A stretch of DNA of 24,150 bases from a virus: positions 1 through 24,150 of IMG/VR virus record IMGVR_UViG_3300044733_000607. One strand, 5' to 3'. The notes under the pieces are model-generated. The model made no database searches. It saw only the letters and a program-made list of their open reading frames with translations, and was not told the origin of the DNA. Position numbers and translations under genes: made by a program. Shown piece by piece: positions 6,146 to 8,542 of the stretch (the stretch's first letter is position 1; each line of letters opens with the position of its first letter).

Positions 6146-6346
6146 ATGAACCTTCAACAGTACTTTTCCGAAGAGCCTCGTGGCGCAAAGATTGAGATGG
6201 CACTGCATCTTGGGATCAGTGTCGAGTGGATGTCCAAGCTGATCAACTTCAAGCGTCAACCCAGCCCAGTGCTGGCAAGGGCCATAGAGGACGCTACAGG
6301 GGGTCTGGTGACACGTAAGGACTTGCGCCCTGATTTATTTGGGTGA
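6146..6346 (+). CDS. YdaS-type Cro-like transcriptional regulator
   Basis: 66 residues from ATG 6146. Longer in-frame starts upstream would run through the promoter and operator. The protein matches the YdaS/Cro pattern: an MNLQQYFSEE start, helix-turn-helix residues about 14-40 (IEMALHLGISVEWMSKLINF), a KRQPSPVLARAIEDATGG segment, and the typical C-terminal VTRKDLRPDLF. Such proteins are small DNA-binding switch regulators at the head of phage early operons. No Shine-Dalgarno precedes the ATG, and the -10 candidate ends only seven bases upstream, so the mRNA may be leaderless. A CI partner is not in the window. It probably binds the inverted repeats just upstream. Confidence 0.85.
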   Translation: MNLQQYFSEEPRGAKIEMALHLGISVEWMSKLINFKRQPSPVLARAIEDATGGLVTRKDLRPDLFG

Positions 6347-6352
6347 TATGAT
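6323..6352 (+). promoter_or_regulatory. Candidate promoter for the C4-like RNA
   Basis: TATGAT (6347-6352, five of six to the consensus -10) lies 18 bases after TTGCGC (6323-6328). Transcription would begin near 6359, just upstream of the complementary elements and the C4-like fold. It overlaps the 3' end of cro. Confidence 0.4.
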
Positions 6353-6368
6353 TTCGACCTATGACGCT

Positions 6369-6386
6369 TGGCGGCGTTTTCGTAGT
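6369..6386 (+). promoter_or_regulatory. Sequences complementary to both loop regions of the C4-like RNA
   Basis: TTGGCGG (6369-6375) is perfectly complementary to CCGCCAA (6423-6429) in the single-stranded junction of the RNA. CGTAGT (6381-6386) is perfectly complementary to ACTACG (6412-6417) in its first hairpin loop. Phage P1 C4 RNA likewise acts through two short separate complementarities. Here the partners lie immediately upstream on the same transcript. Confidence 0.55.
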
Positions 6387-6462
6387 GGGGTTACACATGC
6401 TGTCTGCTGGTACTACGCCAGTCCGCCAACGCTCGAAAGAGCGAGACAGCAGGTGTAGCCCC
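6387..6462 (+). ncRNA. c4: C4-type antisense RNA
   Basis: 76 bases fold into a clear multi-stem structure. The outer stem is GGGGTTACAC (6387-6396) with GTGTAGCCCC (6453-6462), ten pairs including one G-U. The second stem TGCTGTCT (6398-6405) pairs perfectly with AGACAGCA (6444-6451). Hairpin CTGG (6407-6410)/CCAG (6418-6421) is followed by hairpin CGCTC (6430-6434)/GAGCG (6439-6443), closed by a GAAA tetraloop. Length, stem order, the GGTTACAC/GTGTAGCC ends and the CGAAAG hairpin agree with my memory of the C4 antisense RNA family of phages P1 and P7, which blocks antirepressor translation. Here it lies between cro and the replication initiator, with no antirepressor gene in view. A 40-codon ORF crossing it (6361-6483) is judged non-coding. 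Confidence 0.75.
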
Positions 6463-6476
6463 TTTTTTTTGGGGTT
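6459..6476 (+). promoter_or_regulatory. T8 tract and alternative hairpin at the replication gene leader
   Basis: The outer C4 stem is followed directly by eight T residues (6463-6470), a terminator-like arrangement. The stem's CCCC (6459-6462) could instead pair with GGGG (6471-6474), which is the only Shine-Dalgarno-like sequence before the ATG at 6480. The two pairings exclude each other, so the fold could control read-through or translation of the downstream gene. Confidence 0.4.
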
Positions 6477-6479
6477 TTT

Positions 6480-7196
6480 ATGAAGATCAAAAATTGGTCG
6501 CAGTTCCAACACTTTAAGGATCGTCGTCCACCATGGATCAAGCTGTACAGGGAGATTCTTGACGACATTGAGTGGCACGAGCTAGACCCAAAGTCGGCCA
6601 AAGTGCTGGTCATGATCTGGCTCATCGCCAGTGAGTTTGACGGCTGCTTGCCAGACATCAAAAAGTTAGCTTTTCGGCTCAGAATGACAGAAAAGGATAC
6701 TGAAGTATCACTTATCAAGCTGTCTCACTGGCTGGAACAAGATGATATCAGCGTGATATCAGCAAGAGATCAAGATGATCTACTAGAGACAGAGAGAGAG
6801 ACAGAGACAGAGACAAAGAAAGAGAGAGAGACAGAGTTTAGCGTCGAGCCGCAAAGCGTCTCTCAGCCAGTCGTTGAGGTTCCAATTCTTGGCAACAAGG
6901 TTTACGGGGTCAATCAAGAGATGGTCAATGAGTGGTCAAAGGCCTACCCTGCTGTTGATGTTCAGGCTGAGTTACAGAAGATGCGGGTTTGGGCAATGTC
7001 AAACCCGACCATGCAAAAAACTTCTACGGGCATTCCACGGTTTGTGAATGCTTGGCTGTCGAAAGCCCAAAACGAGGCTGGGAAGGTTCCATCAAGTACG
7101 TTCAAAACACAGGGCGACCGCAATGCTGAAGTTATCAGTGGCTTGACTCGTGGACTTTTAGGGAGTGGCAAAAATGTCAAACTACTTGGAAACTGA
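6480..7196 (+). CDS. Phage replication initiator (O-like, helix-turn-helix plus C-terminal domain)
   Basis: 238 residues. Residues 1-95 are the common phage replication-initiator domain: KNWSQFQHFKDRRPPWIKLYR at the start, then EWHELDPKSAKVLVMIWLIAS and a winged-helix-like LAFRLRMTEKD segment. Residues about 100-120 are a Glu/Thr/Arg linker encoded by a GAGACA-type simple repeat. Residues 140-205 form a C-terminal domain (VNEWSKAYPAVDVQAELQKMRVW, then TSTGIPRFVNAWLSK) seen in proteins that contact the helicase loader. It probably binds the phage origin, possibly inside this gene as in lambda O. Only GGGG five bases upstream serves as ribosome-binding site, and this can be masked by the leader RNA. 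Confidence 0.8.
   Translation: MKIKNWSQFQHFKDRRPPWIKLYREILDDIEWHELDPKSAKVLVMIWLIASEFDGCLPDIKKLAFRLRMTEKDTEVSLIKLSHWLEQDDISVISARDQDDLLETERETETETKKERETEFSVEPQSVSQPVVEVPILGNKVYGVNQEMVNEWSKAYPAVDVQAELQKMRVWAMSNPTMQKTSTGIPRFVNAWLSKAQNEAGKVPSSTFKTQGDRNAEVISGLTRGLLGSGKNVKLLGN
6785..6836 (+). repeat. GAGACA/GAGAGA simple repeat inside the initiator gene
   Basis: About 52 bases are built of GAGACA and GAGA units and encode an alternating Glu/Thr/Arg linker. It is a low-complexity tract prone to replication slippage between the DNA-binding and C-terminal domains. Confidence 0.85.
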
Positions 7197-7593
7197 CTTC
7201 TGCGAACCCGAGCAGGGCTTGGACTACATCTTTGGCTACATGAGCGCTGCCTACGGTGCCAGCTTCACCCGTCATTGGGAGCAGGTTGAGCCTGAGCTTG
7301 TGCGCTCTGTCTGGCAAAAGGAGTTGGGCGGCTTCCTGACTTACAGGCCATCGCTTGAGTACGCTTTGGCTCTTCTACCGCCAAACATGCCGCCTTCGGC
7401 CATTGCCTTCAGGAACGCCTGCAAGGCTGGCCCTGCCATCCCCATGAAGCCCGTTGTTTTGATTGAGAAGCAGCAGACCCAGTACGAGCGTGTTCGTGCC
7501 GAAATTGTCAGGTCGGAGGCTCTTGCCAAGCTGGAGGAGCTAAAGCAGGAAATGAAAGCAGGAATTATGTCCAGAAAGGTTGACCATGAATAA
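7174..7593 (+). CDS. Candidate helicase-loader (P-like) replication protein
   Basis: 139 residues from ATG 7174, chosen because GGGAG lies eight bases upstream; it overlaps the end of the initiator by 23 bases. Residues 15-45 (LDYIFGYMSAAYGASFTRHW, then EPELVRSVWQKEL) and 70-95 (ALALLPPNMPPSAIAFRNAC) resemble the C-terminal helicase-loader-type domain found next to phage initiators, as in lambda O/P order. The rest (about 100-139) is a charged helix. It would deliver the host replicative helicase to the origin bound by the upstream protein. The assignment rests mainly on position and weak similarity from memory. Confidence 0.6.
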   Translation: MSNYLETDFCEPEQGLDYIFGYMSAAYGASFTRHWEQVEPELVRSVWQKELGGFLTYRPSLEYALALLPPNMPPSAIAFRNACKAGPAIPMKPVVLIEKQQTQYERVRAEIVRSEALAKLEELKQEMKAGIMSRKVDHE

Positions 7594-8542
7594 GATTGAA
7601 TTTGGAGACTGCCGCGAGACCATGCGGAAATGGAAAGAACAGGGCATCAAGGCGCAGACATGCGTGACCAGCCCTCCTTATTACGGGCTGCGCGACTACG
7701 GCCATGAGGGGCAGATTGGCCTTGAGGAAACACCAGAGGAATACATCAAGGCAATGGTCGAGGTATTCAGATGCGTGTGGGATGTGCTGGAGGATGATGG
7801 GACGCTTTGGCTGAACATTGGGGACAGCTATTACAACTACCGGCCTGGCCAAGGCCAGCGCCAAGGCAAACAATCAATTGCAAGCCAAAAATTTTCAGAG
7901 GTCGAGGTTTGCCATAAGCGAGGCTTAAAACTTGACGGCTTAAAGGAAAAAGACCTGATCGGTATTCCGTGGATGCTGGCCTTTGCCCTCCGCGCCGATG
8001 GCTGGTATCTGCGGCAAGACATCATCTGGCACAAGCCAAACCCCATGCCTGAGTCAGTGCAAGACCGATGCACTAAGGCGCATGAGTACATTTTTTTAAT
8101 GAGCAAGTCAGAGAGGTATCACTACGACAGAGAATCTATCAGGGAAGAAATTAAAGAAACAACAAATGGGAAGGCTGGAGTTAGACGCTCTGGAGATTCA
8201 AAAACTAGAAGTCGTGAGCATTGGGGTGTACCGCATAACCCAGAGAATGTAATTGTTGAATACGACGAAATTAAGGGCGCAAACAAGCGCAGCGTCTGGA
8301 CTGTCACCACCAAGCCTTACGCTGGCGCACACTTTGCCGTATTCCCAGAAGAATTGATTGAGCCTTGCATTCTTGCTGGCGCACCAGTGGGCGGCATTGT
8401 TCTTGACCCGTTTATGGGTAGCGGAACAACAGCACAGGTAGCGCAAGACCTTGGGCGACAGTACCTTGGGTGTGAACTCAATTTAGAGTACGAGGCGCTG
8501 CAAAAGAAAAGACTTAGCCAACTGTCTTTGGAACTGGCATGA
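7586..8542 (+). CDS. DNA methyltransferase, beta class (N6-adenine or N4-cytosine)
   Basis: 318 residues from ATG 7586 (AAAGG upstream, eight-base overlap with the previous gene). The catalytic motif TSPPY is at residues 28-32 and the SAM-binding motif DPFMGSGTT at 274-282, followed by YLGCELN. Catalytic motif before SAM motif defines the beta class of amino-methyltransferases. The middle (about 150-245) carries the variable target-recognition region and includes a more AT-rich stretch (roughly 8080-8270). No restriction endonuclease gene is adjacent, so it is an orphan enzyme, likely protecting phage DNA from host restriction or marking it. The target sequence cannot be read from the protein. 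Confidence 0.9.
   Translation: MNKIEFGDCRETMRKWKEQGIKAQTCVTSPPYYGLRDYGHEGQIGLEETPEEYIKAMVEVFRCVWDVLEDDGTLWLNIGDSYYNYRPGQGQRQGKQSIASQKFSEVEVCHKRGLKLDGLKEKDLIGIPWMLAFALRADGWYLRQDIIWHKPNPMPESVQDRCTKAHEYIFLMSKSERYHYDRESIREEIKETTNGKAGVRRSGDSKTRSREHWGVPHNPENVIVEYDEIKGANKRSVWTVTTKPYAGAHFAVFPEELIEPCILAGAPVGGIVLDPFMGSGTTAQVAQDLGRQYLGCELNLEYEALQKKRLSQLSLELA

Follow-up and report, generated by a model that had tools for sequence, protein, structure and literature searches.

Which kind of RNA occupies the leader of a phage replication initiator gene, and how could it act on the gene that follows? This question is raised by a freshwater phage record, of which the whole stretch of 24,150 bases was analysed and is called the window in the following. 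A sequence-only reading of this DNA had pointed to a fold at 6387–6462, with four stems and a GAAA tetraloop, and had interpreted it as a C4-type antisense RNA like that of phage P1. The fold is confirmed as described, and it is the 3′ part of a larger element of about 110 nt. Beyond that reading, a U8 tract, a −10 box and two upstream segments, a and b, complementary to segments a′ and b′ of the fold, were recognized. Our model, which we consider likely, is that the element is a self-contained antisense attenuator of the C4/CI type heading a phage replication operon. It builds on what was computed here, namely the fold, the covariation in a:a′ and b:b′, the promoter–terminator layout, the replication context and the kinship of the core to C4. 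The features of the locus are as follows.

6146–6346, plus strand: gene of a Cro/YdaS-like DNA-binding protein of 66 aa, upstream of the element (Pfam YdaS_toxin, 2.6e-10; PHROG transcriptional repressor, 2.4e-9).
6347–6352, plus strand: TATGAT, a putative −10 box of a promoter belonging to the element; most representatives have a TANNNT-type −10 box at the equivalent place.
6359–6470, plus strand: predicted leader/antisense RNA of about 110 nt, its start inferred from the −10 box and its end from the U8 tract; model R1, in which the window sequence itself is included, matches 6360–6468.
6363–6378, plus strand: hairpin P0, the loop of which shows target a; compensatory stem changes among relatives.
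6368–6374, plus strand: target segment a, UUGGCGG, complementary to a′; only matched variants in whole-collection scans.
6381–6386, plus strand: target segment b, CGUAGU, complementary to b′; 6/6 pairs covary.
6387–6462, plus strand: C4-like fold P1–P4, which doubles as the terminator hairpin (shuffle test, covariation).
6412–6417, plus strand: antisense segment b′, ACUACG, in the P3 loop (covariation with b).
6423–6429, plus strand: antisense segment a′, CCGCCAA, in the junction (matched a:a′ types, model R1).
6430–6443, plus strand: hairpin P4 with the GAAA tetraloop (fold computation, covariation).
6463–6470, plus strand: U8 tract of the intrinsic terminator; in the copies examined, with one exception, the stem is followed by at least 5 T, and in many by 8–9.
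6480–7196, plus strand: replication initiator-like gene of 238 aa, the presumed regulated gene (PHROG replication protein, 4.2e-16).

Terminase, portal and RusA-like genes are found farther downstream in the window. A DNA methyltransferase gene (7580–8542 of the window; PHROG, 1.6e-74) lies two genes past the element.

From 5′ to 3′, the −10 box is followed by P0 with a in its loop, by b and by P1 and P2; then come P3 with its b′ loop, the unpaired a′, P4, the returning arms P2′ and P1′, and the U tract. The stems of the fold pair 6387–6396 with 6453–6462, 6398–6405 with 6444–6451, 6406–6410 with 6418–6422 and 6430–6434 with 6439–6443. P1 and P2 together form 18 pairs, with a single mismatch between them. 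The minimum free energy of 6387–6462 is −45.3 kcal/mol, compared with −23.2 ± 3.3 kcal/mol for dinucleotide shuffles (z −6.68), and 0 of 200 shuffles were as good. Because the U8 tract at 6463–6470 and the ATG at 6480 follow, the fold is shaped like an intrinsic terminator right before the initiator gene. This ATG is located 17 nt past the fold and 9 nt past the U8 tract, and since these 9 nt leave no room for a promoter, the initiator must be expressed by read-through. Across the family, the P3 loop with b′ measures 6–8 nt, and the start codon usually stands 8–14 nt past the U tract. A −10 box of the TANNNT type was present in 67 of 72 representatives, at an equal distance before P0, compared with 9–13 of 72 in control slots. 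No convincing −35 box was seen in the window, where the best candidate agrees at 3/6 positions. Judging from the placement of the −10 box and the U tract, the RNA seems to begin just before P0 and to end in the U tract, which gives a length of about 110 nt.

Relatives were collected in IMG/VR with a pattern in which a, a′ and part of P3 were the only fixed elements, and it matched at least 119 contigs. In 71 aligned representatives, the structure and both long-range pairings are kept in 97.5% of cells, against 79.7% in shuffled and 34–44% in slid controls, which leave phylogeny in. Both sides have changed in 28 of 43 pairs overall, in 16 of 18 in P1/P2 and in 6 of 6 in b:b′, so the compensatory changes that the sequence-only reading had proposed to seek in related phages do exist. 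Segment b lay outside the search pattern. The 32 distinct b′ loops form a mean of 6.2 pairs with their own leader versus 3.9 with foreign leaders. The a:a′ pairing had been fixed by the pattern and was therefore tested by scans of the whole collection. Its variable position is of the G–C type in at least 119 contigs and of the A–U type in 48, all of which were confirmed by model R1; both mixed combinations occurred in 0 contigs of these scans. A third a/a′ type, UGGGGAG/CUCCCCA, was found in L036 by means of model R1 and not by the pattern. When both main a types are counted, 45 a/b′ combinations were seen. To judge by these alignments and scans, the matching of two separate segments across so many variants is hard to explain other than by pairing, despite phylogeny.

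Compact elements with an a segment of the P1 type (TTGACAG/CTGTCAA) were present in 0 contigs of IMG/VR. A hairpin between the 3′ arm of P1 and the ribosome-binding region (AGCCCC/GGGGUU in the window) was also considered. Comparison of the stem classes showed no conservation of this hairpin (8.6 versus 8.0), and for this reason it was kept out of the model. Two copies stand apart from the rest of the family. The most divergent copy found by the pattern, L244:7520–7641 (45 bits), has another outer stem and a 10-nt P3 loop, and it is possible that it bridges toward other C4-like forms. The divergent copy L036:1748–1880 repeats the a hairpin (TTGCTGGGGAGCAAATATG) at the start codon of the next gene, where it covers the ribosome-binding site in the manner of C4 a2.

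How close is this element to C4 RNA itself? The core CTGCTGG-N(4–14)-CCAGTCYGYCAA has one match each in P1 C4 and in the window, with 0.00 expected. It reads CTGCTGG-TTTCACTAACG-CCAGTCTGTCAA in P1 C4 and CTGCTGG-TACTACG-CCAGTCCGCCAA in the window. P1 C4 (RF01695; c4-a1b1, RF03163) and the element have in common the core CUGCUGG-b′-CCAGUCYGYCAA, the three-way fold, and an upstream a in a hairpin loop followed by b. In P1, the annotated a1 (TTTGACA), located in a hairpin loop, and b1 (GTTAGTGC) complement the junction and loop segments. Two traits of RF01695 are present in the window. One is the core hairpin GCUGG-b′-CCAGU with the unpaired a′ (YGYCAA) after it, and the other is the pair of upstream targets, of which a1 occupies a hairpin loop and complements a′ and b1 complements b′. 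Trans action as a processed RNA of about 77 nt is a further trait of C4 RNAs; for the element, action in trans is a proposal. The a:a′ pairing is UUGACAG/CUGUCAA in P1 and UUGGCGG/CCGCCAA in the window, a difference of two compensatory changes.

There are also clear differences between the two RNAs. In P1, 66 nt separate b1 from C4, whereas in the window the target adjoins the antisense. P1 has a2/b2 beside the icd start and no U tract, whereas the window has a U tract. The extra stabilising hairpin is located 5′ of P3 in P1 C4 and 3′ of a′ in the element. P1 C4 silences an antirepressor, whereas the element heads a replication module. With regard to a second b target, the b 6-mer recurs downstream in 2 of 112 cases with the own sequence compared with 7.3 with shuffled ones, and no full a2/b2 was found among them. 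The Rfam C4 model (RF01695), a search with which had been suggested for this segment, gave nothing at the gathering score in the window or in ten relatives; up to E = 10, neither the region of the element nor the copies in L144 and L244 gave a match. The same model scores P1 at 68.8 bits and P4 at 74.9 bits, and model R1 has no match to P1 C4 or P4 CI. The proposed C4 identity thus stands with respect to the core, the roles of loop and junction, the order of a and b and the covariation, but not with respect to the Rfam model, the side of the hairpin and a2/b2, and on these last grounds the element was not filed in RF01695. Judged by its sequence, it is C4-like, outside strict C4 membership.

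The closest functional precedent is found in satellite P4, in the leader region of which the Rfam scan gives this C4 match together with an isrK match. The C4-scoring RNA is taken to be the CI RNA because of where it lies and because segments on either side, upstream and downstream, are complementary to it. The replication genes of P4 are shut off by premature termination when the CI RNA pairs with seqA and seqC (PMC4825925). C4-type control of phage replication is therefore already known, and the earlier view of it as a use not described before has to be given up. Of the P4 segments, a′ (TTCTCAC) finds its match in an upstream hairpin loop and b′ (CCTGTGAA) in the segment next to it, after which comes a hairpin with T7. 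P4 CI and the element are alike in that a C4-type RNA heads phage replication genes and a terminator comes right after the upstream targets. The stretch of a, b and terminator precedes the P4 antisense RNA by a considerable distance, whereas in the element the terminator hairpin is the antisense fold. Moreover, P4 has a2 and b2 copies after the antisense RNA and an extra hairpin 5′ of P3, and the element is without a full a2/b2. By analogy, the element may be viewed as a fused version of the P4 layout.

Similar arrangements are known from other systems. IsrK of the Salmonella prophage Gifsy-1 likewise has its own promoter, a short RNA, an intrinsic terminator and read-through into the next gene (PMC4825925). 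IsrK works in trans on the longer version of its own transcript (PMC4825925), and the same is proposed for the element. Unlike the element, IsrK activates an antirepressor operon, has another fold and has its target within the downstream ORF. In plasmid pIP501, the antisense RNAIII lowers the expression of the repR initiator via transcription attenuation in the leader (PMC4981023). RNAIII is convergent and has its own promoter, whereas in the element the leader would double as the antisense RNA.

A position at the front of replication genes, originally noted for the window, is shared by nearly all copies. The gene directly next to the element is a member of the initiator/primosomal cluster in 68 of 110 pattern-found contigs. 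Of the remaining loci that were inspected, most have a small ORF, a ParB-like gene or a gene of the HNH- or GIY-YIG-like type in between, with a replication protein, primase or helicase farther on. In L049, L108, L143 and L036, the element and the initiator gene are separated by HNH- or GIY-YIG-like genes, probably those of homing endonucleases. A search with the initiator protein returned 80 IMG/VR loci, and more than half of these have the same leader element.

A different conserved leader fold was observed in 15 distinct relatives, mostly in the equivalent slot before the initiator (e.g., L028:2081–2145, L033:2410–2474, L050:2407–2471, L064:2405–2471). It has the form GAAACA-CGGCUAGG ... 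CCGAAAAGCG ... CCUGCCG-NGUUUC plus a U run, and ten loci scanned with Rfam gave no match. Its loop (e.g., TACTCCC, AACTCCC, ACTTGTC) is in many cases complementary to the sequence just past the U run; overall, this complementarity is modest (6.2 versus 5.2 pairs).

Of 7 pattern matches in a species-level genome collection, L206, a betaproteobacterial MAG, and L211, the chromosome of Polynucleobacter sp. UK-Kesae-W10, are real; L205 and L207–L210 were set aside as chance matches. In the Polynucleobacter chromosome, where the element belongs to a prophage, a gene of an XRE-type repressor lies upstream on the opposite strand, an initiator gene and an AAA+ helicase-loader-like gene lie downstream, and an integrase is located 17 kb from the element. 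The element was found in 1 of 186 genomes of this genus. Among named phage records, it is present in two uncultured circular genomes, and plasmid records contain no match to it. Limnohabitans phage DC33 (PQ492659.1, 39 kb) has an initiator homologue and is filed under Inoviridae, a classification that looks doubtful. Each of 37 long contigs contains one copy of the element. A tyrosine integrase is encoded in 2 of these 37 contigs and an HTH_3-type match in 25. A phage-plasmid lifestyle was considered and rejected, as ParA was found in 0 of the 37.

How could such an element act? We infer that the RNA exists and acts in trans, that the direction of control is repression, and that its role is that of an immunity device or of a brake on copy number or timing. 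From the element's own promoter, a leader with the targets a and b would be made, followed by the fold bearing b′ and a′, which would at the same time be the intrinsic terminator. As long as the far arm of the terminator is still to be transcribed, a and b would be paired with a′ and b′ of the growing transcript, so that the terminator would be delayed and some polymerases would read through into the initiator gene. The terminated RNAs of about 110 nt would build up with b′ and a′ exposed and, in trans, would occupy a and b on newly made leaders. A leader bound in this way could fold only as the terminator, and the extent to which the replication genes are turned off would be proportional to the RNA. 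Specificity would be encoded in the a/b pair.

Folding computations are consistent with such a switch. For a prefix of the window ending just past a′, the minimum free energy structure contains a:a′ and b:b′ (−23.5 to −29.8 kcal/mol), and the prefix switches to the terminator once P2′ has been made, with −54.4 kcal/mol at full length. Early a:a′ and b:b′ pairing followed by the terminator appears in 60 of 72 representatives versus 75 of 360 foreign-loop controls, and the early fold is missing in 12 of the 72, the minimum free energy of prefixes being a crude proxy for cotranscriptional folding. The duplex of leader and loop region has about −21 kcal/mol. Since b abuts P1 and b′ lies at the other end of approximately 18 bp, it seems sterically impossible for b:b′ to form in cis while P1 is fully closed. 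We therefore propose that cis pairing delays termination and that a second RNA copy on a and b lifts this delay and thus favours termination.

The b:b′ pairing could also serve solely in cis. In this case, a:a′ and b:b′ within one nascent RNA would act as an antiterminator, with read-through that is fixed or tuned by a protein or metabolite. The early fold and its switch to the terminator are what such an attenuator would display, and the 9-nt gap to the ATG and the single copy per genome also suit it. However, the core, the loop placement and the order of a and b are those of the trans-acting C4/CI RNAs, and the b code is highly diverse yet always matched. Furthermore, of 152 pairs of close relatives (proteins at least 85% identical), 21 differ in b′ and 8 in the adjoining stem, which suits an immunity-type code over a structural element. 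Action in cis alone is, in our judgement, rather unlikely. Even less probable is a trans activator like IsrK, in which the short RNA would bind the read-through transcript and raise the expression of the downstream gene. The order of promoter, short RNA, terminator and read-through gene does match that of IsrK, which in trans gave 8-fold transcription and about 140-fold translation (PMC4825925). IsrK, however, needs complementarity to the downstream orf45, whereas copies of b downstream of the element are fewer than in shuffled sequences, and the alternative hairpin that would sequester the ribosome-binding site is not conserved. An ordinary conserved terminator of the cro-like gene, free of antisense regulation, would account for the GC-rich stem followed by U8 but leaves the covarying a:a′ and b:b′, P0 and the adjoining promoter unexplained, and it is very improbable, since segments beyond the hairpin covary too, in contradiction to it.

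With respect to the attenuator of the C4/CI type, the point against repression is that IsrK, the closest dissected relative by layout, activates. A role in prophage immunity is not general, because most carrier genomes are without an integrase. We speculate that a brake on replication timing or superinfection fits better than a pure prophage-immunity device.

The fused architecture of target, antisense and terminator is new, as are its abundance, its more than 40 a/b specificities and its mostly integrase-less carriers. Such RNAs are common in related uncultured phages and are missed by current RNA databases. The immunity-RNA principle of C4/CI, best known from P1, P7 and P4, is thereby extended to many uncultured phages in a far smaller architecture, and the hosts of the carriers are betaproteobacterial where known. 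A tentative further idea is that these elements form a distinct and widespread class of fused immunity RNAs, a coded replication brake of mostly integrase-less phages, in which phages with the same a/b code would be excluded and others would not, so that more than 40 codes could coexist in freshwater phage populations. If the proposed mechanism is true, the a/b code would predict mutual exclusion among phages, and a compact RNA whose terminator is its own antisense repressor would stand at the decision point for phage DNA replication.
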